Assembly: GCA_963920765.1 (NCBI GenBank)
Contig: OY987243.1
Location: 17,851,419-17,915,418, forward strand
Origin: Ulota crispa
Lineage: Eukaryota > Streptophyta > Bryopsida > Orthotrichales > Orthotrichaceae
Direction: 5' to 3'
Length of the DNA stretch: 64,000 nucleotides
The position numbers and the translations under genes are program-made. This document shows, piece by piece, positions 40,015-58,205 of this stretch; the first letter of the stretch is position 1; the number at the start of each line of letters is the position of its first letter. A model generated the notes under the pieces. It ran no database searches, was not told the origin of the DNA, and worked only from the letters and a program-made list of their open reading frames with translations.

Positions 40015-41638
40015 GCAAACCAAAATTAGATTAGATTAACCTATACAATGAACACCTATATGCTGCAAGTATATAGACCTAGCTTTTAAATGAAAGCAAA
40101 GAGGCAAATCTAAACTTGGATAGATTAGACTAAATCATATAATAATGGTTTAGGGTTTAGGATTTGTAAAGCTATGTTTTCAATGGAAGAAAAGAAGCAG
40201 TTAAATCTAGATTAGATTAGATTATATTAATCCAATTCACAACTATTAAGCCACAGGTACATAGAGCCAGCTTTAAAATCAAAGAGGCAAATCCAAATTT
40301 GGATAGATTAAGGTTTGTACACCCATAAGCGTTAAACTAAGGGTTTTGAACATGATGAATATCAACAAACAGCTAGCAAATTATTGGATTCTATTAGGAA
40401 CGGAAAAATAATGAGTTTGCACTTTCAAATGTATTGTTTGGATACTGTGAGAACAAGTTGTGAATTCTTAAAGAGCAAATTGCCATTGTACCTAATACCA
40501 ACACTAAGGTTCATGTTCTCATGTTGTACATCCTTGTAATTACATCTATTCACTTCCATAGATTTTCAAAGATTTCAATGGTGACAGTTATACGGACACT
40601 GATGCTTATGGGTGTACGTACCTTAGACCAATTCACTTAATAATAGTTTAGGGTTTAGGATTTGGGTAGCTATGTTTTTAAAGAAGCAAAGAGGTAATTA
40701 AATCTAAATGAAATTAGATTCTATTTATCCAATTAACAAGTATAAGCCACAAGTACATAGAGCTAGCATTAGAAAACAAAGAGGCAAATCCAAATTTGGA
40801 TAGATTAGACCAAATCATGTAATAACTATTTAGGGTTTAGGATTTGTAGAGCTATGTTTTCAATGGAAGCAAAGAGGCAATTAAATCTAAATTAGATTAG
40901 ATTGTATTAATCTAATTCACAACTATTGAGCCACAAGTACATAGAGCCAACTTTAAAAAGCAAAGAGGCAAATCTAAATTTGGGTAGATCATACTAATCC
41001 AAGTAATTATTGTTATATGGCATGAGTATGTAGAGCAAGCCTTTTAAAAGAAATCAATAAAGAAAATCAAAATTTGGATAGATTAGACCAGATCATATAA
41101 TAATGGTTTAGGGCTTAGGGTTTGTAAAGCTATGTTCTCAAAGGAAGCAAAGAGGCAGTTAAATGTATATTAGATTAGATTATATTGATCTAATTCACAA
41201 CTATTAAGTTAGAAGTACGTAGAGCCTACATTAAAAAACACAGAGGCAAATCCAAATTTGGATAGATTATACCAAATCTTGTAATAACAATTTAGGGTTT
41301 AGGGTTTGTAGAGCTATGTTCTTAATGGAAGCAAAGAGGCAATTAAATCTAAATTAGAGTAGATTATTATAATCCAATTAACAAGTATTAGCCACAAGTA
41401 CATAGAGCTAGCATTAAAAAACAAAGAGGCAAATCCAAATTTGGATAGATTATACCAAATCATTTAATAATAGTTTAGGGTTTAGGATTTGGATAGCTAT
41501 GTTTTTAAAGGAAGCAAAGAGGCAATTAAATCTAAATGAGATTAGATTAGATTAATCCAATTCACAAGTATTAAGCCACAAGTACATACAGCCAACATTA
41601 AAAAACACAGAGGTAAATCTAAATTTGGATAGATTAGA
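40015..41638. repeat. ~183 bp tandem repeat array, left part
   Basis: The landmark TTTAGGGTTTAGGATTTG recurs at about 40,151, 40,650, 40,832, 41,108, 41,290 and 41,473. After removing the nested MITE the spacings are about 184, 182, 276, 182 and 183, i.e. a ~183-base unit with one 1.5-unit step. Each unit holds 'gctatgtttt', 'aagcaaagaggcaatt', 'aatctaaattagattag', 'agccacaagtacatagagcc' and 'aatttggatagattagacc'. The array resumes at 57,493 beyond the CACTA element. Copies are diverged but clearly homologous. Confidence 0.88.
40311..40623. mobile_element. MITE nested in the 183 bp array
   Basis: Ends AGGTTTGTACACCCATAAGC and inverted AGGTACGTACACCCATAAGC (18 of 20 match). The array sequence 'agattagacc' is split after its TA, with TA repeated on the far side, so the target duplication is TA (TTA is also possible). 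Tc1/mariner or PIF-like, non-coding. Confidence 0.8.
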
Positions 41639-42270
41639 CACTACAACAATAGCAGCATTTTGCGACTTAGCAATATGACTATCCGGAGTTTATTCAGAAG
41701 CCATATCACTCATAATATGGCTCCGCCATCTTAGAGTCACATAGCGGCATATATCACTTCAAACTGCCATCCATTTTTAGTCATGTTTTTTGACAGTTGT
41801 ATGCCCTTGTCATATACGGCCAAAGTTCCATGTGCGTATTTGCAGCGTTTCCATAGGTATACACTTCCTACGCTATTATTTTCAGGTGCCTGGGCAATCT
41901 GTCAAACTCTGACATGATTTGTTAGTAATCTCTAACAGAGACTCTGGTTATTCCTGACACAAGCACTGACATGTGCCGACGTGGACTCTTGACAAAGATC
42001 ATGCATACTGTCATATGTGTTTGACATTGGTTCTTAGGAGTGGTGCCTTGGATGTTATTAATGATGAAGTGGATGTTCAAAATGGTTGAGGTGGACAATT
42101 CTTCTTCAATGGTGAAAGGGAACACAACTCTTTTTAGTCACAGAAGGCGTGACTACATAGAGTCACTTTTGCCAAATCACCCCCTTTTACTAAGACTAAT
42201 TGTAGTCACATTCTCCTGCTAATGTTGAATGGTACATGACTTCTTAGAGTCACTTCTTCTTTGGCTTCAA
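41639..42270. repeat. CACTA left terminal inverted repeat and subterminal motifs
   Basis: The first 23 bases form the terminal inverted repeat. The next ~600 bases carry short motifs in both orientations: ATGACT near 41,676, GAGTCAC near 41,737, AGTCATG near 41,779, AGTCAC near 42,137, GAGTCAC near 42,160, AGTCAC near 42,205 and GAGTCAC near 42,247. Such clustered subterminal motifs are where TNPA-type proteins bind in known CACTA elements. Confidence 0.75.
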
Positions 42271-42627
42271 GGTATACTTCATTTTAGGTTCTTAAAAACG
42301 TTTGCCCATGCATTGTTACGATTTGGAGTTCACAAACTTCTCCCTCACCGCTCAGCTACATACTAAATTTTGGTTATTTTTTACATTCTCGGTCTTTGGG
42401 TTCAGGGTTTAGGATAATGCATTGCAGCTTCAACAACCATGAATTATGGTTATTTTGAACAATGTGATAGAAATCAACGTCTCAATCTGAAATGCACATA
42501 CATGTACTGAGCACTTTGGTAGGGCACATCACAACATAGGCGTCTCAAAATGCATTCATGTACAAATAGAACAAGTTGTTTCTATCCTACATAATGTGCC
42601 TGCAAGAGCGCTTGCAATTATGACATT

Positions 42628-45600
42628 TCATTCCGGCGAATAAGCAACGGCATTGGTCAACCACTTTGTGATGAAGTTTAGGGCATTGCCCAAGCGCACC
42701 ATTGGAGGGTCGTCATTATTGTTCCCCTCAAACAAAAGGACACCTTCTTTCCCAGGAACCACTGACATCACTGTGATGGACACATTGCCCTCTTTAATCA
42801 TCCTCCCATACAACATGCTACCTGCAAGGCTAACAATTTCTCCATGGGCAACAACAGTATCCATGGCCTTGTTGTCGTCATCAAGGTCAAAAACCTTAAC
42901 CTTTAGGCCAAAGGCTAACGCAGGTTCCGATGGCGTATCTCCCACCTTAGTTGCAACCATCGTCACTACCTCTACATTTCCCGCATCTTGCAAGAGGGCC
43001 ACATGCATTTGTAAGCAATTCCCTTGGAAGAGTACATCTTCCTTAGCATCGCACAAACAACACTTGACACTTTTGTGAAGCAAGTCCCACACTCATACTT
43101 CTACCCAATTTTTTAAAAATAGATGGAAACTCAAAACAAAGCGTCTAGGTTGTAGCGATGTACTAAAGGCTCAATACATGCTGCCTCAAGGATTGCCCTC
43201 TCTAGGTATGGTTTAGTGTACTCAACAGTAGAGGGGTTTATGGCAAAAGCAGCAAATCCTTTTACAAGTCTAGTTAGAAACTCATCCTTTTCGACTAAAA
43301 GATCCCACTTACTGATGGTTAGTACGTTTTGGAGGGGGGAGAAACTTTGTCACCTCCATGTCCTAGTCTACATGTAGGAGTCGGGCCTTAGCATTGGAGG
43401 GATTGGGTACCATGCCAACGAGGTTGTGCAAGTCCCTATTATTGCCCCCTAATTTGTTCCCCCATCTAAAGCACCACTTCACTTTGGACCCAATCCCCAA
43501 GAAGATAGCTACCTGCTATAAAAGTGAATCTTCTAGTGGAGACCAAATGCCCACGTCAAAGTCCTTTTGTAGGGCGGACAAGAATGGTCCGCAGCCATTT
43601 TGTTGTTTTACTTTGACCTTGTGGTCATTTGCGTAGAGCGTCGTCAAATCTGCCCTCCATTCTCGTCTATTGTGAAGTGGTTTGACATTGCAAAGCAATC
43701 CCACCACGTTCAATACAAAAACCTTCCTCTTTTTCTCCTCCGACAACCTCACAGGTAGAAAACTTGGAGTGGACAAGGCTTTCTTCTTCTTCAAAGGAGG
43801 GCTTGTCTTTATTGCAACCCTCTTGCGCACCCTCTTTGTCGGCAGGGCGTCGGACATTGCTCCACTGTCACCATTGTCGTGGTCACTGGAACTCTTGTCA
43901 AGGCTAGCCTGCGTACATATTTGGTCCAAAAATTTAGTATAGAGCCCCTTATTGAGCAGAAGCAACAACTATTACGTTTAATTAAATGCGATGTTTGTGG
44001 CGATACATTAGACCTTTGCAGCCGCGTCCTCATTCTTGGCTTTCTCCATGGCCCTCTCTTGTGCTGCTGCTGCACGCATTGGCCAACGTGGCAAATCTAC
44101 ATTGGATTTTAGTGCCCTCTAGTTCTTCTGCTTTACCGGCGCGCCACTTTTGGGTGGGAGATTGGCCACTACTTCCTCCACAGCCTCCTCCTTGCCGAGC
44201 AAGGACTCCTCTAGACCTTCTCCTTCATGCAAGCTCCTCCCTTTACCCTTCTCTTTCTCCATGGGGCTTAGGGGTGTAGTGAGGGGTCATCGCTTTGTCG
44301 ACGACAGCAGTACTTGCCTTTCTTCTCCTCGTTGGGTTCGTAACAATTGCAACAGGTGGTGCAAGCTTAGAAGGTCCTGCTGCCTTTGGTGTAACTAGCG
44401 CTTTTGCTGCAATTGAAGGGTCTGTTCCCTTCCCAGGCCCACTGCGGAATTCTTGGATGAACCTCTCCATTGTGGCTGAGAAGTCAGCCATGTTGGTGCT
44501 GACTTCTTTCTTAAGCTCCTTCACCTCTTGTTGCATATCTTCCTTAAGCTCCTTTATCTCCTGCCGGATTTCTACAACCTCCGGATTTTCTGCAACATCG
44601 TTGTCATCGGCCTCTCCGGACCTTTTCAGCCTCAATGGCTCCGTGTTTTTCTAGGACAAATTTAGTCGCTTGCTTCCCTTCTTTTTTGGAGGACTAGACA
44701 ACTCAATGGCCTGCACCAAGACAAGCTACAACATGTCAATAAAAACACAGTAACATGACTACACATTGTCATATGATCGTGGACAGTAGTATGACTTTGC
44801 GCAAATACATGACTTTGTCACGTTCATAGTAAGAACTTGGTCATGCATAGTTGCATACAACCCAGAATTGCCAAGACAGGGGCTCCATACACCCCACATA
44901 TGTATAGGTAGGTCAACGATGAGGAGGAATTTCCACCCCAGCCATGGCAATGCACATACAATTGATCCAAAGTTAGTTTAGACACTCACTAGTCGCGAGC
45001 TATTTGACCCTTTTGACTTCCTTGATGCAGAAGCTGTTTGAAGACTTCGCTGTGCATTTTTCATGCGCTCCGCCTTTGCAATTTTGTTAGATAGTCCAAC
45101 TAGCTTCTTGAAATTTTTGGCGTGACCCTTCTTCACGTTTGAGGGAAGGGGGCTCCTTTGATCAAGTTTCTTCTTAACGTTTGACCGCTTTGTACGCATT
45201 TGCTTCCTCATGATTTTGAAGAAGTTCTCCTCCGGCACATCCCCTACCCCCCTGCATTAAAATGAGGTTGCCATTTTATCCTTGATGGCCAGCAAAAGGG
45301 GCCGAGGGTGGGTTTTGAAGTTATTGAAACTCCAGTCCAAATCCCGCAATAACCCTCAGAGCTTCGCTAGCCATGCTGGACGATCCTAACCTGTGGGATC
45401 TCCATCCGGGTCAATTTCAACTCACTTTGGGCTCTTGCGGTGCCTTGAAGAACAAGCAACTTTGAGGGTCTTTGGATCAACCGCATCCTTTCCTACCTCC
45501 CTTTGTCTGTGCTTCTCCGCGCAAGATGGCTCCATTCGATCTGCCTTTCCCTTCTCGTGTCCAAGGTCAAGAGATTTGTCTTCGAGGTGCTTTGGGAAGA

Positions 45601-47715
45601 TGCCCTTTGCTGCCATCTGCTTTCTGATCATAATCTTCTACAACTCTAGCTCTAAGAGGACTTTGTTTTGATATTCTTCACCAACTTTTTCATCATTGTT
45701 CTCCGCACTACTCCCCTTGTTTTCTTCCTCTGGCCAATCCTCCTCTACTGGCAAGTCCTCCAAGCTTGGGGGAGAAACCTCCGGCACTTGAAGACTTGCT
45801 AGGGCTGTCTTCTTTGCTGCTGATTTGCCCCCCTTTTGTTTAGGGTGGCCTTGTACTCTCCAGTTTAGTGGTTCATTCCCCTGATGTTGGGTCTCTTGCA
45901 ACAACATTGCTTGGACAAAGAGAAACCCTAATCAATAAAGCACAACACATGAGGAAGTAAAAGTGGAGGTTCAATAGATTCTAACCTTTTGGGTCACCCT
46001 TGCGTCTTTGGCGCCCTCCTCGATAGAGGCCTCATCAGTCTCCTCATCACCGTGAAAGGAAGGGTCCTCACTATTGTCGCCACTGCTCGCCATTTTTTGG
46101 GAATCGCCTCTGGGTCTAGAACTCCTCCGCGGCGGTTCTTCACGACTCTTCTTGGGCACTTCTGTTGTACGTGCTCGATTGCTATCATAAACCCTTCCAA
46201 GCTCATTAGCGGTTGCTTCCAAAATAGGCAAAGTAATGGCAGGGAATGTAGAAATCATACGGAACATGTCACCTTGCAAGGAATCAGGTAAATTAGCAAT
46301 GGCCGTGGCTAGGCTTGCCAATGTAGTATCCATTTATTTCTCTTCTTTAATCCGGCTACCCCAAGCTTGCCCACAAATAGCAAGATGTGTAGATGCTACT
46401 GTTCAAGGATTGCAGGTGTTTCTACCTTGAGGGTATTTGTTTCTGACAACATTCATTGCATTCATGAGTACTGCATGGCATTACCACACTTTCTCAAGGT
46501 TTGCTCAAACAAACACTTTTAATCATAGCAAATGTCACTACCACAAGTCATGTGCCTTTGGGTAGTTATAAGTTAAACTTCTAGGGTTTAAGCCTTAATG
46601 TCCTGCAATAAATGTGCTGCCATGTTGTGGAAAATTACAATGGTAGCTGCCAAGTTCCTTTCCTGTATTCTTAGACCCATGAAATGCGTAAGGGTTCTAG
46701 CCCTTCTACAATTTCAATTTGCAAAGGTTGGACGAGCAAGTTTTTTGATTAGATAAATTTCCATCCACCAAATATCGATCCAGAGAAGGCAATTGGCAGC
46801 ACAAGATGGGCTACTACAGGGACATTGTCATACGCTCTAGAGATAACAAAATTCAACCAAAGAAAGAAGAAATAGAGTCATGTAATTCTTGTATAGCATC
46901 TCATTCTTGGCATGAAATCTAAACTCTGCTTAATGCAAATGAGTCCTTGCTGCGGGTGTGTTGTGAATATTTCTAGATTCCACGGTCTAGAGCAAAGTTC
47001 TCTGCGTTCATTATATAGGACACCTACTAAGACATGGGGTTCTACGTGGAGGGCGGTACTACTGCTTTCACATAGACTATCTTCTTCTCCAATGGACTTG
47101 TTGAGAGAGGTGGAGTAGCGTGTCTCAGGATAGGGAGATCCAGACTTGTATTGTAAGCCACGTTCAGTTCACCCTACTCTTGGTTAGACAAGAACGACCC
47201 CTTTTCTTGTTGAAACCGCTCTATAGCTTTGCGCACTCTTAGTGGAGTGAAGCCCACACCATTTCCTTGCGGAAGCTTGACTAAGTGGTGGCTATGATCA
47301 CGCGTTTCAGGCGGATCCTTCCTATCGGATGAACCACTCACTAATGCATTATACTCTAGCTCGTCAGAGGACGCACTTCTCTACTGCCTTAGACCTGCGC
47401 GACAGCACCATCATTTCTCTAGAGTGACAACCTTGACCTCTACTGCAATAACTGGTACTATAGTAGTGCATGTGCATTTCAGAAAGACAAGCCTGTTTAA
47501 CCAAAGAAACCTCCCAATCCTGCAACATTCATAGTTCCTACAAAAAGCAAAGGATAAAACACTGTGAAGGAGGCAAGAGTGGCATACCCAACGTGTGGTG
47601 GTTGCAAGGAGTTTGATTTGTGCTCAAGTAAGCCTAATTCCCAAAGTATCTTGTTGTTCTCCTCAATTTTTTTCCTCCTCAAATTGTCGTAGTCTGTGAT
47701 TGATGGAGATGCCAT
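42628..47715 (-). pseudogene. CACTA TNPA-type accessory gene, multi-exon, decayed
   Basis: Minus-strand coding segments from ATG 47715: 47715-~47590 (MASPSITDYDNLRRKKIEEN, a motif common at the start of plant TNPA-like proteins), 46333-~45,990, ~45,910-45,422, ~45,360-44,978, 44,650-44,243, 43,968-43,516 and 43,092-42,628. The piece near 45,350-44,980 resembles Transposase_24 (Ptta/En/Spm): LDWSFNNFKTHPRPLLLAIKDK and a final SRKSKGSNSSR. The piece at 44,640-44,240 is a Lys/Glu coiled coil. The last has DUF8039-like layout: VKCCLCD, LYGRMIKEGNV, NALNFITKWLTNAV. It should encode the DNA-binding partner of the transposase. Several in-frame stops are present; exon joins are inferred. The gene diverges from the transposase with ~585 bp between start codons. 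Confidence 0.62.
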
Positions 47716-48299
47716 TGTGTAACATCATCAGCTGTCAATTTTGCCTCCCCCGGCACTTGAGTATCTGTACTTTGGCTGGCTATCACTATACAGTGCTCAA
47801 TGCAAACACTCAAGTGCCAAACGCAGGCAATGCACTAATCTGACTTGTTGCGGCCATCAGGGCCGTCATCAAACGCAATTGCATTTATTGACAGGTCTAT
47901 TGCCGTAAACCTACCTACATTGCCTTGTCACTCTGTCCAGTCATGTCACTTTGGAGACAGATATGACTGGACAGAGTCATGTGTCTCCATCGCCTCCCTA
48001 GAAATAACCCACTGACAAGGTTATGGCCAACAGTGGAAGTTGTGTTGGATTTTCTGGCAATAGGAATCAATACAAACACCTTCACACATTGCCAATGACT
48101 TCTACGGTAGATTAGCAACGCCCTGCAATTGCCTTCAGTTCATAGTGTGGAGTGAGGTTTTCTTTTCTGCAGTATGCTGTGCCAAATACTCAATGGACTG
48201 AATTTTGAGCCCTGTAGAATTGTGCTACTTTCATCATCGCCCACGGCAGTGCAGCTTCATTGCGCGAGAGCAATTAAATGCATCTGTGGGCCTAACACA
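47716..48299. promoter_or_regulatory. Bidirectional promoter region of the CACTA element
   Basis: The 584 bases between the divergent start codons (47715 minus, 48300 plus) must hold both promoters. It contains AGTCATGTCACTTT and ATGACTGGACAGAGTCATGT (about 47,937-47,982), motifs that also cluster at the element ends. Binding of the TNPA-type product here would regulate its own gene, as known for En/Spm; that part is inference. Confidence 0.5.
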
Positions 48300-48733
48300 A
48301 TGACTTCTAAGAATTATTTATATTGCCATTTCCATGTAGGTCTGCACTGGAATATGGTAATTGAGGAAGTGCAAGCTCTTAGAGATCTCCAACTATGGCA
48401 ACAAGAAGAGATACAGGCAGACAAAATGTATCTACGACGTTACTCATGTCCGTGTTGTGAGTGTTCGAGAGGCAAAGTTCTGCTTTGAGCAACTATTCAT
48501 AAACACCTCCAAAGCAGAAAACGGGACCCTGCCTTCACGTCTTCCATTTGGTAAGAAGTTCTGCAATGCAATTTTCATTGTATGTATTCTAGCATGCACT
48601 GTTTGTCACTTGCAATAATGAAAATATTGGGGCATGTGTGGGCTACATAGAGAGCCTCTTCCAAAGAGCTTGCTTGCGATTGCTTTTGTCATTTCTAAAC
48701 CCCACATCAAACAAACCACCTACAATCACAAAC

Positions 48734-49234
48734 AACATTTCTGCAAGAGCCTATGCATTACAGAGGTGGAGGTCAAATGTATTTGACGGGCAGTGGTGTG
48801 ACGGGTTCATTCTAATATTAACTAAGTTTTCAAATTGGAGTAGGACTTGGGAAGTTAGAGTTTTTGAATTCCAATTCATGGGATGGGGTTTGTTTGCAAC
48901 GCAAGCTGCTTGTAAGGGGGATGAACTACTACCTTTTGTTGGACCTCAATATACATTGCGAGAGTAAAAGACGCTAGAAAAAAACTTTGTTTCCATCAAG
49001 TCTTATGTAATGCAGGTAGAAAAGGAGTTGTTTGTAGATGGAGATGTCATGAAGGGGAATGTTGCTGGATTCATTACCAATTCTTAGGAGCATGAAGAGA
49101 TAGGAAATGTAGTGTGGAAGTTTCACATGTACCCCAAACCTTGGAATACATCTGAATGGGGTTACGTGATGAAAATAGCATCAAGAGACATTGCGGCAGG
49201 AGAGGAATTGTATGCAAACTACTGTGTGAATTGA
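48734..49234 (+). pseudogene. SET-domain (lysine methyltransferase) frame inside the CACTA element
   Basis: One continuous plus-strand frame reads as a SET domain. Motif I is MGWGLFATQAACKGDELLPF (expected G-x-G-[LV]-x-A then KG-x-L); the middle is SYVMQVEKELFVDGDVMKGN; motif III is GNVAGFITNS (expected GN-x-x-R-F-x-NHS); then WGYVMKIASRDIAAGEELYANYC (expected W-x-x-x-A-x-x-DI-x-x-GEEL-x-x-Y). It ends TGA 49232-49234 with no Cys-rich post-SET part. The Arg of motif III is Gly and the His of NHS is missing, so catalysis is doubtful even before decay. Two in-frame stops (48,965 and 49,085) interrupt it. SET proteins methylate histone or other lysines; the source and role here are unknown. It could be a separate cargo gene or an exon fused to the transposase. 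Confidence 0.75.
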
Positions 49235-50159
49235 ACTTGTGTTATTCATCTTTATAGTTGCACGTTTCTCCTACAAATTTCAAACAAATCTTGTAATTTG
49301 GAATGGTAGGAACTATTCCATACTAATAAACTTTGTTGTCAAGACAACCATTCTAGACAAAGCCGGCCTGACCTTGCCCTTGTTCCTCTGCAATGTGCAC
49401 GTTAAAATGCAGGGCGATTATATATTAGAGGTTATAATAGCAAACCCTGTGTATTGCAACATTCTCTAGGTGTGCTTCTTCTATTTGTACATGTGGTCAA
49501 TGGATATAGGCCTCTCCATTATCTAGCACATGGAATTTGATGGAACTTGTCTGCGCCTTGTTCAGTTAGGGCTACCATAGCAGTGTCAGTATCTTAGGCG
49601 GCAATGCATAGAGCGTGCGTCAATTCAAATCCTAGTATTGTCTAGTTGTTTACATTCAACCAATGCCGGCACTGAATTTTGAGTTTAGAAGTATTAAACA
49701 TATGCTACTCATAGGGTCTTAATTGCAAAAAATGAGTCTAAAGATCAGAATTAGCGAGGGAAAAGCGCTCAACATTTGTAATGTGCATGAAATTTCTACT
49801 TCATGTAACCCTAAAACTGCCACACAACAACCAAACTTGGACCCGCCACTATATGACTAGAGACAGTCATGTGGCACTGGTGACGTGACTTTGACGTCTT
49901 TATAGCATGACTCTCAACGTGGTGAGCTTCCATTTTCTCTTGACACAGACTTACCTCATTGCATGGAACTCACAGCTCATCTTGATGTTTTCCTGCCTTG
50001 AAAAATGCAAGACAATAATGCCAAACTTGACTTGGTTTTCCCCGCACAAAAGAGGCAGCAGACGGAATCAACATAGGCAGAACTCCAAAGATTAACAAAG
50101 GTGCAATCTGACCTTGTTACATAATAGGGAGAAGTTGAGGTTCTCCAAATGGTGACGGA
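49235..50159. other. Gap between SET frame and transposase core
   Basis: No recognised coding. It contains several AGTCATGT/ATGACT motifs near 49,855-49,920 and is probably intron or spacer of the transposase unit. Confidence 0.45.
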
Positions 50160-53100
50160 GTGCTTTAATGGATATGAAGACTTCCATATGCAATATGATG
50201 AAGATGGCGGTTTAGCTACTGAATCCTTACTTCCCTCTGGAAGAGGACATTCAAGCCAATAGCAACAACAACGTAAAGAACTTGCAGGAAGAGCAAAAGG
50301 AAATGGGAGAAGGTGCTCCTACAATGCACATAGAAGACCCTGCCAGCGTGGACATGAACGCACTTTTGCATGAGGCAAACACACCACTTTTTTGTGGAAG
50401 CAAATCAAATCGCCTAACATCAACATTGCTCATCCTAGTTTGTTGTACCATGTTTGGCGTGCCAAACAAGTTTGTGGACGAGTTGCTCAAGCTATTGAAG
50501 GACAACATCCTACCCGAGGGCAACACACTCCCAAAGTTTTCTACAAAGCAAAAACTTTATTGATGAAATTGGGCCTCTCCTACAACTCAATACACTCTTG
50601 TAGAGATGGTTGCTGCCTATTCCAAAAGGAACTAGAACATGCAACGGAGTGGCCTACGTGCCATAAATCTTGGTATGTTCCCAATTTGAGCACTATACCT
50701 ATGAAAGTGTTGAGGCACTTTCTACTTATTTCGTGTTTAAGAAGAATGTATAGTTGCACGCGATTGGCTGAGCTCATGAGGTGGCACGTAGAAGGCAAAA
50801 ATATAGACAAGGTGATGAGGTCCGTGGTGGATTTTAAGGCTTGGAATCATGTCAATAACATTTGGCCGGGGTTTGCAAAGGAGGAACGCAACATTAGACT
50901 TGGGCTTGCACTAGATGGTGTTAACCCATTTAGGGCCCAAAGTTTGAGCCACTCCACATGGCCCATGGTGATGCTAAACTATAATCTTCCTCTGTGGTTG
51001 GTGACAAAAACTTTCTTTATGATGCTTATCCTGATCATACCAAGAAAGGAGAGCGTGACTGACAAGAATGTTGACATTTACATGGCGCCCTTGATTGAGG
51101 AGTAGCAAATGTTGTGGGAAGGGGTGAACTACTTAGATGGATCACGGCGAGACACTGAGGAACGAAGATTCAAGCTATGTAGCATATTATTGTGGACAGT
51201 GAATGACTTTCTTGCATATGGATTGATTTTTGGGCAGGTCACAAAGGGACACAAGGCTTGTCCTATATGTGGACCAAATGTTTCAACTCAACAATCAAAA
51301 GCGTTGAAGGAGAATGTCTATCTTGGGCATAGACGGCACTTGCCTATGTTTCATCCATGGAGACGTAAGCGGGGTAACTTTGATGGCAAGGTGGACCTCA
51401 AACCTCCTCCTCAAAGGATGAGTGGAGGAGAACACCTTTGCTATGCAAATGAATGCAAGGAATGGAAGATCAATCTTGCCCTGAACAACCGAGCTCAAAG
51501 TAAAGACCCCATTCAAAAACATGGTGTCAAGTGAAGGAGTTGTTTGTTTTCATTGCTATACTAGAAGGTGAATTTTTTTGGTGAAGTACTCATTTCATAA
51601 TCCCATGCATATCACCTGTGAGAAGAAATCTAGTTATAGATCACCAATACTCATGCGCTACAACTCTACGTTACATAGCGTGTTCATTTCTACCAAGTGA
51701 GGTGACTCAGCTAAGTTGTACAGCCTAGTACAGTCATGTAACTCAAAAGAGTCATGTCTAAACAACACAATTTTGCCTACTCATTCAGGCTAGCCACACG
51801 CTCAAGTGACGTAGGCCAAGTATTTTTGTTGCAGTAAGACCACTATTTAGTAGGTATGTAGTTGCATCTTGCAAGTTTTTTTGAAACATATGTTTTGACA
51901 ACCCATGTATTTCTGCAGGACTTTTTGATTAGACATATGCTAGACATGATGCATTGCGAGAAGAACCTCTCTACAAATATTATGAAAACCTTGTTTGGAG
52001 TAAAAGACAATATTGGAGTCCATTTGGACATGAAAGAAGCAGGTGTGAAGAGACATTTGTGGCCCGTCCTCAGAAGAAAAATTGAGGGTGTTATGCTACC
52101 TCAAGCGCCATATGTTCTAATCAAAAAAGAAGGAGCTGTTTTTGTAGAGCAGATCCGTTCACTGAAAACATCCATACAATACGTGGGCCATCTGAAAAAG
52201 CGCATACACACAAATGGGTGCATGAAAAGCCTAAAGTCCCACAACTACCACATCTTATTACAACAAGTCCTACCACTAAGAATTCGAATAGCCTTGAGGA
52301 AAGAGGTGCGCATTGCTATTATAATGCTATCCCGGGTGTTTAGAAGAATATGTGGTAAATCCATTAGTTTCAATGATATTGAGGACTTGAAGTCTGATGT
52401 GGCTACAACATTGTGTATATTGGAAAAAAATTTCCACATTCTTTATTCAATATCATGACCCATTTAGTTGTCCATCTAGTGGAAGAGGTGGAACTATGCA
52501 ATTCAATGCATACGCGCTGAATGTACCCTGTTGAGAGATACTTGAAGGTGCTCAAAGGATATATTAGAAATTGAGCTAGGCTTGAGGGCAGCATGGCGGA
52601 AAGGTACATAATAGTAGAAGCACTTGGCTTCTATATCAAGTACATGCAAGAGTACAAGGTCACGACTAGGAGGATTTGGGACGATAAGGAGGAACCAACA
52701 ATGACCGATGAGATGTTGGAAGGCCAAAGAGAATTACAATGCTTGTTTCCTACTCTACAAGAGTGGATACATGAATTTGTATTGAACGATGTGGCACCCT
52801 TGGAAAAATGGAGGAAGTACAAGCCTGTAACAACAGTGCCTTTTTATCTATGCATAGGCTCTGCTTTCATTAACTTACATAGTCATGTCTATAGCTGGCA
52901 ATGACTATTCATAATGATGTTTATATAGTCATGAGACTATATGCAGTCAAATGTATCAACTATGAGAGATGCAATGCGGTCCGTTAAGGCAGTGCGGTTC
53001 CAAGATAAATGAATGATGTTTGCATCAAATACTGAATTATGAAATGGTGGTGGACTTGTATTAGTGGGATTTTGTAAGAAACACGGGGAGAAAATGGTGC

Positions 53101-53954
53101 GTCGCAAGAAAATGTGTCACAAATATAGGCATAGAAGGAGTAGGAGCCGAGTGGTATATCCAGCAGAAATGCAAAATGAAGAATTTTACGTATGGTTTCT
53201 CAAAGCAGCTGTACACACCATAGAATTTGGTACCAAAGACGTAGATGATAATGTACGGATTCTGATCCTTCCTCCATCGAATCAAGCAAGGTCTTACAAA
53301 TCCATATTCGCTTTTGAAAACTACATTCAAGTTCAGAGCTCAGAGAAGCACCTGACTACTATGGATTCTGGTGTAGCTGCAACGTTTCAACAATTATGTT
53401 GGTCAAGAACAAGGGATACGAACATGAGGATAGCAGATCTAGAGTATGTGGGATGGATGGAGGAAATAATATCTATGGACTATGGGCAATTCAAGGTGGT
53501 TGTTCTCTATTGCAATTGGGTGGTTGCAAATACTAGAGGCAACTCAGCTACTATGAAACGTGATACCTATGGATTTACAAGTATGAACTTTGATAGATTA
53601 ATTGCGCATTCTACACAATCTTTTGCGTTCCCTCTCCATGTTCAACAGATGTTGTTTTTGACGGATATAGAGAAGTCTAGATAGAATGTGGTGCTACTCA
53701 AGAAACCAAAGAGTATACAAAATTTCTGCAAATCTGATGACACACTTGCAGTAGAGTGCATACCTCTCGGTAGAACAACCGACTTCCAAGGACTACAAGC
53801 CACAAGATTGAATGATGACCTCTAACTGCAAACATGCATGTTGTCCAATGCAGTGGAAGTGGACACTAACGTGGTTGCATCAGCATTGCACCGTCTTAGA
53901 TCAAAAGATGCGGAAACAGAGGACATGGTGTATTCAGAATCAGATCTAGAGTGA

Positions 53955-56900
53955 CACCCCCGCTCATAGCAAGCGTTGTCCTGATGGAGATCCCTTCATC
54001 ATGTAGATACTTGTTATTTATTTATATTTGTATTGATTTTAATAAATCAATAATTGAAGCAAAAATGGTGGTCGTGGTGAGAATCAATGTTTAGTGACAG
54101 CACAGCGATTATATATTCCAGTGCATTGCGCCGTCTTGTCACATGCACAACTCAAGGAGATAGGTAGTGGATTGGCTGGGCCAATTTTCTGCTTCACTAG
54201 CTGCTAAGTCGTAGGCTACCATTATCACTCAACAAGTCCAATGGAATTCAAACCCAGATCAGCGGACAGCCAGAGACAACCGCTTTTCCAACCAACCAAA
54301 TCTATGACTTCGCGGTTGAAAACAAACATTTAACGCTATTATATGCTCGCAAGGGCACGTAGCCACTTTACAATGGTGTTTATTCTGTAATTTAATCATA
54401 TATATATATTTATCTAGATGTTTTAGAGGGCTCAAATATTTTACCTTTGTTTGAATAAAAAATAAAAAATATTAAAGGTTTAGAAATGAATGAGAAAAAT
54501 GTGAAAGAAAAAAAAATTTAGCATCTATACTGGGATTAAGATGGAGAGGAGCATGGGCTAATGTGCCCCACTTTCCTACTTTAAATAGGGTCAAAATTAA
54601 CGAGGAGAGATTCTTTAGTATGTTGGAAGTTAATGTATGAGTGTTAGTTGGAAGAGAGAAGAAATCCCAAAAAATTTATGTGAAATTTTTTTTTGTGTAA
54701 ACATGATTTTGAGCTGAAATTTGGAAGAGCTGTTCCTTGTGTGATTACCTTTCCAAAATGAGTTTGCAAGTTTGATTTGAAGTTGTGATTCAAAAGTTAT
54801 GAGTGTTTGAATTCTGGAGTCAAAAAATCAAATTATGAAGAAAGGCTGAGAGTTTGACAAGGCATAGCTTATAACATGTATATTATTTTGCCACAAAATT
54901 TGAAAAAAATGTTCATTGTAGTCTTAGCTTTTTAGAAAATCTTTAAACGTGAGATTTGGAGCTTAGAGGAGAAAGTTATGGAGGTGTAAAAGATTGGAGG
55001 TGTGAAAGATTGGAGGTGTAAAAGATTGGAGGTGTAAAAGATTGGAGGTGTCAAGGATTGGAGGTGTCAAGGATTGGAGGTGTCAAAGATTGGAGGTGTC
55101 AAAGATTGGAGGTGTCAAGGATTAGAGGTGTCAAGGATTAGAGGTGTTAAAGATTGGAGGTGGCTGCTCTTTTGTTGGGAAAAAACCGAAACTTTGAAGA
55201 GTTATAATTTTTGAATAGTATGAAATTTTCTTTTCAAAATTTTAGGAGTGATAGTTTATTGTTGTAGCTTTCCAAATTGTTTTTAATCATTCCATTTAAA
55301 ATCTTATTGAAGAAGTTATAGTGTGTAGAAGATGAGGGTTTGGATGCTCTTTAAAAAAATTGAGACTTACAATTTGATTAATTAGAACTTTTGTGCAGAG
55401 TTTTATTTTGAAATGAAAATTTTAGGAGTTGTAGTTGATGGTATTGTCTTTCCAAATTAATATCACATTTTTATGGATAATGTGTAGAACAAAAGTTATA
55501 AAGGTTTATAGAGGCAGTATTTAGTGTGCAAAGAGGAAGAAGAACCTCTATTTTAAACCCGCATAACTTTTTGACAGTAGCTTAGATTGAATTTAAATTT
55601 GGAGAGATGTTAGAAGGTTAGAAGAACTTTTCAAGTTGCTATTATGTTTAACATTTGGATCTTTGAGCCATATGTGACATTAGATAGAAGGCCGCAGCTT
55701 TTCTAGGACTTGTTATTTGTAATATTCTCCATTGTTTTTATTAAAACATAAAGACTTGAAGACATGAAAATTTGAAGATCTGAAGATATAAAGACTTCAA
55801 AAGGAATATTTTGAATTTATTTTTTATGTATCTGTGAGATGTGACTTTGTTATTTCTAGCCGATTTTGGAGGCTTGTTTGTTAATTCATTTCTATTCTGT
55901 TTTGTAAACCTTGTTGCGGGCAATATGGGTTAAATCAAATTTAGCCTCATTTATTGTTGTGGTGACAAAATGAGATAGATCATCCACATGGTCGAGACTT
56001 GCTATGTTCTCACGATCTAAAGTTTTGACCAGCAGATTGTGGATTTGATTTTAGGATCCTATCATACGGACGGCAGCTCGTGTTTGTTGTCCCGATGTAC
56101 TCGTCCTATATCCACTAGGCTCTTATCCCTACTTTGACATTTATACTTTTAGAACCAATCATAGGATAGGCCAACGGAAAACTGAAGACTGAAGATTTTA
56201 AAAGTGAAGATCAAGATCGATAACGATTTTTAGTTAACAAAGCACAATTGCAACGAGACATCCTGCGTGTTCTCAAGGCGCACTTCTCTCAACCCGACAA
56301 CGTCCCTGAGTTGCCTAATCAAAGAGTGTATTAAGCTCTCATTGTTATAAACAGCACTCATTGATAAACCATGAAAAAATCTAGGAAAGTAATGAAAAAC
56401 GCATAGAAGCAAGTCACCTTTGTATTTTAATATTGTAGGATACTATCTGTTGTTTTCTATGTGACAAAAAAGAAAATGCATGTTAGGTTTGTTTGTACGT
56501 GAAAGAATGCACCGCAGATGCCACACGTGTATGACCATGTCCATAACAGATCAGCCATGCTCTGAATGTGTTTGCAGGAAGTCTCAAATGCAAAAGACTC
56601 CATACAGTAATTTTTTTCTGGAAATTGTAAGTAGTAGAGGTAGGTAATATAGAGACAGCGCTACAAGAATTCTTGAGAGCACTCACGAGCATTGTGCAAC
56701 AACTTCATTGTAAACCCATAGTATGTGTCGGGCACATTCATTTTTGAATGAATGGGAGGAAATTTTGTTTTCTGTCGTAAAACCAGATGAAGATTTTCAA
56801 ACCTTGTTTGCATTTGGAAAGATCGTCAGAGTGCGCAGTCATATTTCGTTAGGAACCATGGCATTCCAAGATGTTCGGGCAAACCTCGTTGTAATTTAGG

Positions 56901-57469
56901 TTTTTGGAAGGTTCCATGGAGCACTGAAATTCATATCGTGTAATACTCAAATGAAATTTAAACTTGTCTAAACCCTAAACCAAAATATTCCCACGTTTGA
57001 TAGCCCCCTGGAATTTCATTCCAATTGTGAAACCTGAGACCCTCCAAGTTGCTGTAAAATGTGTAGAAAAGCCTGAAAAAACAATGAATATTGATTCGCT
57101 CCATAAATTACAGTGAGCAACCCCAAAAGAACGAACAAAAACTAGGTCATGTGTATCCCACGGATGAACCCTACAAAAACTGCCCACCAATCTCTGGGCA
57201 GATAGGGGGGAACTGACGGTATTACATGACTGCTTCATACGACTGAAAACAGTCATTTCACTACGGAAAGATCTGAACGTTCCCCAGGAATGCTCCATGC
57301 CCATTCCTCAGGCAAGTATTCAATTTTCTTGTTGTTCCCAACCCGTGCGTATGATATTTCAGGGCGTATATGTGACTAGCAGTCATGCGGAGGTGATGGC
57401 TAGCCGGATTCTGGGAAATTGTTATTGCCGACAGTTGCAAGTCACAGGAGGTCACATTGACCGAGTCAT
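53955..57469. other. Right non-coding arm of the CACTA element
   Basis: Unusually long (3.5 kb) and without coding likeness. About 54,360-56,480 is markedly AT-rich and carries a minisatellite; this may be an extra insertion, but no end signature is visible. The last ~250 bases again carry AGTCAT/AGTCATG/GAGTCAT motifs near 57,253, 57,383 and 57,463, as in the left arm. Confidence 0.55.
54980..55165. repeat. 16 bp minisatellite, ~11 copies
   Basis: Head-to-tail copies of GGAGGTGTNAARGATT, nearly identical, with a late switch from 'gtgtaaaa' to 'gtgtcaag' types. The uniformity suggests recent expansion by replication slippage within the transposon's right arm. Confidence 0.9.
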
Positions 57470-57492
57470 AAAATGCTGCTATTGTTGTAGTG
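57470..57492. repeat. CACTA right terminal inverted repeat
   Basis: Perfect 23-base inverted copy of 41,639-41,661, ending GCTATTGTTGTAGTG, followed by the AGA target duplication. Confidence 0.95.
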
Positions 57493-58205
57493 AGACCAGA
57501 TCATGTAATACAGTGGTGCTTGGTTAGCATCAATTTTTGTAAGAGCAATAATTGGATAAAATCACAATCCCATTTCTCTTTTGCTCAAAAGTATGTATTA
57601 TAAGTTTGGTTAAGGTCAAGTGCTTGCATATGGTCAATGTTTTCTTTTCATCAATTCCCATTTTGACTTTTTAATTAGAAAGGTGTTTGGTTAATGTCCC
57701 AAAAACATGAGTGGGAAAGCACCTCCAAAGTTGCAACCCCTAAAACTAGGGAAAGTAACACAAATGAAGGGTTTGTTTATGATCAATGCTTGGATAAGGT
57801 CAACACTTTCTACAAGCCCAAAGTGTTGACGCTAACCAAGCACCACTGTAACAGTTTAGGGTTTAGGGTTTGTAGAGCTATGTTTTCAATGGAAGCAAAG
57901 AGGCAATTAAATTTAAATTATATTATATTATATTAATTCAATTAATGAGTGTAAGCCACAAGTACATAGAGCCAGCTTTAAAAAACAAAGAGGCAAATCT
58001 AAATTTGATTAGATTCTACTGTTCCAATTTACAACTAAATGCCACAATTATAGCCAACTAAAAAAAGCAAAGAGGCATGTGTAAATTTGGTTAGATTAGA
58101 CCAATCCAAGTAATAATGGTTATATGACACAAATATACAGAGCAATCATAAAAGAGCTAAAGAGATAAGTGTATATTTGGTTAGGTTAGACTAACCCAAT
58201 AGTTG
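57493..58205. repeat. ~183 bp tandem repeat array, right part
   Basis: The array continues from exactly the base where the CACTA element split it, is opened again by the MITE at 57,511-57,848, and goes on with TTTAGGGTTTAGGG, 'gctatgttttcaatgg' and 'gaggcaattaaat' segments to about 58,205. Confidence 0.85.
57511..57848. mobile_element. 338 bp MITE with TA duplication, nested in the array
   Basis: Ends CAGTGGTGCTTGGTTAGC and its perfect inverted copy GCTAACCAAGCACCACTG; TA lies on both sides (57509-57510, 57849-57850) and the outer flanks join to the array sequence 'catgtaataacagtttaggg'. Tc1/mariner-like. The interior has further mirrored pieces (TTGGTTAAGGTCAAG, TTGGATAAGGTCAAC). No coding capacity. 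Confidence 0.88.

Follow-up and report, generated by a model that had tools for sequence, protein, structure and literature searches.

CACTA transposons in Ulota crispa that carry a SET methyltransferase exon between zinc exon and Tnp2 core

The DNA analysed here, hereafter the window, is a stretch of 64,000 nucleotides from contig OY987243.1 of Ulota crispa. It contains a CACTA (EnSpm) transposon that occupies positions 41639-57492 and is 15,854 bp long. The element is flanked by a 3-bp target site duplication, AGA, whose left copy lies at 41636-41638 and whose right copy lies at 57493-57495. The left terminal inverted repeat, on the forward strand at 41639-41661, begins with the 23 bases CACTACAACAATAGCAGCATTTT, which are common to both ends; the right terminal inverted repeat is located on the reverse strand at 57470-57492. 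With its CACTA ends, its 3-bp duplication and its Tnp2 transposase, the element is a member of the CACTA/EnSpm group. Three coding parts follow one another on the forward strand. The first is an exon with a CPCxxC...H zinc motif, at 48354-48550, whose limits are inferred and which is directly followed by a GT donor. The second is the SET exon, at 48653-49234, whose inferred start is uncertain by a few bases and which terminates with a stop codon at 49232-49234. The third is the Tnp2 transposase core, at 50012-53684, which is composed of several decayed pieces and has an uncertain start. Two pieces of the core match Transposase_21 (PF02992) with 105 and 87.2 bits, respectively, against a cut-off of 28.6. 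A PF02992 match is located at 50806-51435, and DUF4216 was found below its cut-off. The zinc segment of the window matched no Pfam family in the Pfam scan, while the zinc exon of another copy, C10c, matched PF13963 with an E-value of 0.0029 and 18.2 bits, below the cut-off of 27.7.

On the reverse strand, at 42550-46333, the element has a second gene (or more than one), likewise decayed and pointing away from the unit made of zinc exon, SET exon and Tnp2 core. Its pieces were matched in eight of the nine other copies tested and not in C7, and none of the pieces scanned matched a Pfam family above the cut-off. In the 3' part of the element, at about 54970-55170, short tandem units resembling AGGTGTCAAAGATTGG can be noticed by eye. 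AGTCAT-type words, candidate TnpA subterminal repeats, were counted as raw numbers. The window copy is decayed. Its zinc exon has an in-frame TGA at 48486-48488 and a GT donor that is one base out of phase, its SET frame is broken by TAA at 48965-48967 and by TAG at 49085-49087, and its Tnp2 frame is split into several pieces. The first-pass annotation, made from the letters of the window, had described a SET domain at 48734-49234 in a decayed CACTA transposon, with a zinc segment upstream, a Tnp2 core downstream, and terminal repeats enclosed by a target duplication; all of these features were recovered.

The SET sequence of the window, scored with X in place of both in-frame stops, matched the Pfam SET profile with an E-value of 1.5e-9 and a score of 38.6 bits (cut-off 22.4), and its frame runs to the stop at 49232-49234. 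All 14 family members examined matched the same profile at E 0.01. The GxG motif and the catalytic tyrosine are residues with established roles in SET domains. In a set of 22 SET copies, the two glycines of GxG are kept in 18 and 19, respectively, and the C-terminal tyrosine in 21. A GN...F...NS motif had also been read in the window, and here the family and the window copy part: the asparagine of the NH-type motif is conserved in 21 of the 22 copies, but the window copy, the one exception, has a threonine in its place. The family departs from the NHSC motif, in that His-Ser-Cys is replaced and most of the 22 copies have NSS or NNS. SET domains of the PRDM type also lack NHSC.

Among solved structures, the top relatives by profile are the Set1 H3K4 methyltransferases (E 7.1e-6) and the MLL enzymes. 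Because these matches are too weak, they do not assign a substrate to the family SET. A weak profile match (E 0.05) was found to ATXR5/6, which are H3K27 enzymes. When one SET copy from subclade 2 was compared with solved structures using phmmer, ASH1L was the only match (E 0.94). For 8 of the 14 members, the only NCBIfam match was a SET-domain effector from bacteria, at 26.6 bits against a cut-off of 550. AlphaFold, run on the single SET sequence of the window, gave a mean pLDDT of 44.2.

The distribution of the SET exon was analysed in the genome assembly, 274.8 Mb in 157 contigs, and all copies described here are from this one genome. The first Tnp2 piece of the window was used as the query, and 150 of its 551 candidates were scored. 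For every one of the best 39 of these 150, a SET match lies upstream of the Tnp2, in the same orientation. These 39, which have identities of 49-100% to the query, have their SET within 6 kb in 37 cases and at about 20 and 25 kb in the other two. In the C4 copy, SET and Tnp2 are about 20 kb apart, perhaps owing to nested inserts. Among the remaining 111, ranked 40 to 150, there is one fragment (66% identity) with a SET at 1.8 kb, and three more have a SET about 17 kb away, which we took to be part of neighbouring elements. Two of the 111, L048 and L054, were searched with the family profile, and no upstream SET was found at E 10. By eye, each has a zinc-like segment, which in L054 is followed by a phase-0 GT; the window zinc segment matched L048 with an E-value of 1.6 only.

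Two further Tnp2 searches, with PF02992 and with another piece of the window transposase, were scored for 150 of 596 and 150 of 613 candidates, respectively. With the latter piece, a SET was found within 30 kb in 41 of the best 45 matches and in none of the other four. The close matches to this third piece near which no SET was found are C8:20799228, C11:183436, C4:15560491 and C7:12879245; they are possibly truncated copies, copies whose partners lie outside the best-scored matches, or true losses. With the Pfam models alone, a SET was found within 10 kb upstream in just 13 of 150 Tnp2 matches, which we attribute to the weaker Pfam model.

In the reverse direction, an uninterrupted SET copy used as the query gave 68 matches and a second SET query gave 70. 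The union of both comprises 56 SET loci, of which 48 have a Tnp2 no more than 30 kb away: 45 lie less than 8 kb from it and 3 more at up to 30 kb. This tally used 54 of the 150 Tnp2 matches (the first 50 and four later picks) and 35 of the 70 matches of the second SET query, the remainder of which overlapped loci of the first. The eight unlinked loci, each of which is partial or has a stop, may pair with a Tnp2 outside the best 150 scored. The order zinc, SET, Tnp2 was found in eight of nine other neighbourhoods. In the ninth, C2c, the zinc and SET parts lie in the fetched stretch and the Tnp2 side lies outside it, with a Tnp2 there among the matches listed.

In four elements, namely those of the window, C4, C2b and C3, the SET is enclosed by two ends flanked by matching 3-bp duplications, and the terminal inverted repeats of all four start with CACTA. 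The C4 element (C4:1085532-1132705) is 47,174 bp long and has the AGA duplication and the same ends as the window. The C2b element is 13,491 bp long, with the duplication CAT, and the C3 element is 16,160 bp long, with the duplication ATG and 17 of 20 end bases alike. The ends of both begin with CACTACTAGAAAAG, and their terminal repeats differ from those of the window and C4. In C1 and C10c, the best end pairs have 16 of 20 bases alike, without a matching duplication, and the 20 kb scanned in each of C10a, C10b and C7 yielded no pair of ends that agree at 15 of 20 bases. The same end scan in the window gave three chance-like pairs, with 15-17 of 20 bases and without duplication. Near-identical SET copies in opposite orientation are located on C10, near 0.22 and 2.27 Mb, and on C11, near 3.92 and 3.95 Mb. 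A second Tnp2 lies about 17 kb from each of the C10 copies, an arrangement indicative of segmental duplication and not of transposition.

The SET exon is under purifying selection across the family. Nei-Gojobori counts were made for 22 SET copies, giving 231 pairs, none of which was dropped; of 17 loci that fed into this set, L015, in which an indel splits the SET, was omitted. In 231 of 231 pairs, dN is lower than dS, which is saturated for many of them; where dS is below 2 (45 pairs), the median dN/dS is 0.235. Close pairs have higher values, 0.28-0.60, as is expected because the copies are decaying. The median pN/pS is 0.397 in frame, compared with 0.991 and 1.09 out of frame. Likewise, stops account for 43 of 3592 SET codons in frame, compared with 252 of 3570 and 208 of 3570 in the other two frames. 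For eight copies with both genes (28 pairs), the pN/pS is 0.212 for Tnp2 and 0.349 for SET, and the pN values of the two are correlated (r 0.82). The trees of SET and Tnp2 for these eight copies have four of five splits in common, and the fifth is weak in both. The correlation and the agreement of the trees argue that SET has moved along with its transposase, under a somewhat weaker constraint. The first-pass annotation had left it open whether the family conserves the domain. The linkage of the best 39 of the 150 scored Tnp2 matches to SET, its presence in elements with differing terminal repeats, and the excess of dS over dN among copies answer that it does.

The earlier description implied that SET continues in frame into the transposase, and this part of it does not stand. 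In 16 of 16 copies, the SET has its own stop, separated from the tyrosine by three residues; five of six further copies (L049-L053) have it too, and L047 has lost it. A fusion of SET into the transposase frame is ruled out by this stop, conserved in 21 of 22 copies. A splice donor hidden within the stop was likewise considered and rejected, as the final residues vary while the stop is constant. The zinc exon is followed by a GT in seven of the eight copies in which the end motif was found, and this GT is in phase 0 in six of the eight. The exceptions are the window copy, described above, and C2b, in which the GT is gone; in C3, C2c and L047, the script did not find the motif. A phase-0 AG lies at the aligned place before SET (-96 or -99) in 11 of 16 copies, as a raw count, and nearby in L013 (-87), with a like site in L047. 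The phases of the zinc GT and the SET AG make it likely that the two exons are joined into a predicted Zn-SET protein of about 260 amino acids.

The zinc exon may also be joined to the Tnp2 core. The start of the core, recognised in four copies and not judgeable in six others (C2c and L047, where the motif was not found, among them), is preceded by a phase-0 AG only in C10c. In the window and C4, there is no AG at the expected place and an in-frame ATG lies two codons before, while in C3 an AG is present and the frame is broken. The Tnp2 core may thus have its own start. En/Spm makes two proteins via alternative splicing, and for this reason we retained the splicing of zinc exon to core as a model, at lower odds because the core acceptor is readable only in C10c.

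The retention of the SET exon across dozens of copies suggests that the elements use it to modify chromatin or other proteins for their own benefit. We hold, with slightly better than even credence, that a clade of CACTA elements gained and kept a SET exon whose predicted protein would methylate histones on the elements and relieve their silencing. In this reading, the SET methyltransferase exon was gained at its present place, downstream of the zinc exon and upstream of the core, and has been retained since; its position, its conservation, its own stop codon and the purifying selection on it are observed. The zinc and SET exons would be spliced into a Zn-SET protein, as the splice phases suggest, and the same zinc exon could, with less support, be joined to the core with SET skipped. 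The transposase and the SET protein would then share an N-terminal segment, which might direct both to the same ends of the element. In the least certain step, the SET protein would methylate histones on element copies, and with host silencing relieved, transcription and mobility would be kept. Element-directed histone methylation, perhaps against silencing, is our best guess and is held with moderate belief. The stronger version, in which one alternatively spliced gene would yield a transposase and a SET chromatin writer with common N-terminal targeting, and the element would open its own chromatin at every site reached by its transposase, we regard as tentative and rather doubtful.

A SET fragment captured from the host, hitch-hiking without function, is very improbable. 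CACTA elements do pick up host fragments, and the two in-frame stops of the window copy would suit such a passenger, but dozens of diverged copies carry SET at one common insertion place, with its stop conserved and with purifying selection acting on the SET frame only. A matching intact host gene was not found at E 1e-3 with the two SET queries (56 loci). The genome has 78 places that match Pfam SET. Two of its genes combine SRA, Pre-SET and SET domains, and another combines FYRN, FYRC, PHD and SET; they look like plant SUVH and ATX genes, respectively. A host source of the family SET was not found in these comparisons, and the loci L001-L008 had no match to the SET profile at E 10; L001 matched the window SET by tblastn with an E-value of 0.001. 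Linkage and selection in frame thus rule out the one-off capture that had been offered as the alternative, and the reading of a functionless capture is largely refuted by them. The SET protein might instead modify a substrate other than element histones, such as the transposase or a host factor, and thereby control transposition. Non-histone substrates are common among SET enzymes, and the family motif departs from NHSC; the top solved profile relatives, though weak, are nevertheless histone methyltransferases, and we consider this substrate unlikely, if by no means far-fetched. Somewhat less probable still is that the state written by the protein is repressive or marks positions, which would limit the activity of the element or steer its insertion. 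The weak match to the ATXR5/6 profile (E 0.05) would be consistent with it, as would SETMAR, a SET-mariner fusion that is reportedly tied to repression at loci bound via transposon ends (PMC8327481).

The means by which plant transposons evade silencing are an open question, to which VANC was the sole element-encoded answer found in the literature searched. The question is made directly testable by a SET exon that a whole CACTA clade has kept under selection, with the Tnp2 relatives that lack SET serving as natural controls within one genome. The window element resembles other plant CACTA/EnSpm elements with Tnp2 in its CACTA repeats, its 3-bp duplication, its Tnp2 core and the second gene beside it. 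It differs from them by the SET exon between zinc exon and core, which has no match upstream of Tnp2 in the relatives L048 and L054. In the literature searched, outside which lay Repbase Reports and most subscription journals, no report of SET in CACTA or plant elements was found. SET carriage by DNA transposons is already in print, and the plant CACTA case is a variant of it. In PMC12730594, which cites Kojima and Jurka 2014, SET histone methyltransferase genes are described in HarbingerS and MuDR families of Phytophthora. These too are DNA transposon lineages with a SET methyltransferase gene of their own; however, judged by that description, they belong to other transposase superfamilies and to an oomycete host, whereas the transposase of the window is Tnp2 and not a Harbinger transposase. 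The same paper describes TET/JBP dioxygenase genes in fungal transposons, EnSpm among them (PMC12730594). There, an EnSpm-type element likewise carries an enzyme that alters epigenetic marks, but the enzyme is a dioxygenase acting on methylcytosine rather than a SET protein, and the hosts are fungi. The VANC proteins are reported to be anti-silencing proteins of the VANDAL elements of Arabidopsis, which belong to the MuDR superfamily (PMC12730594). If our best guess holds, in both cases a plant transposon encodes an accessory protein that counteracts silencing; VANC, however, is not presented as a SET enzyme in the VANC literature searched, and the window has Tnp2 in place of a MuDR transposase. 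In SETMAR, as reported, a SET domain is also joined to a transposon-derived DNA-binding part, but it is a single domesticated host gene, whereas the SET described here is a mobile element's own gene. The elements of U. crispa thus extend the carriage of SET by DNA transposons beyond oomycete Harbinger and MuDR to another superfamily and, seemingly, to plants.
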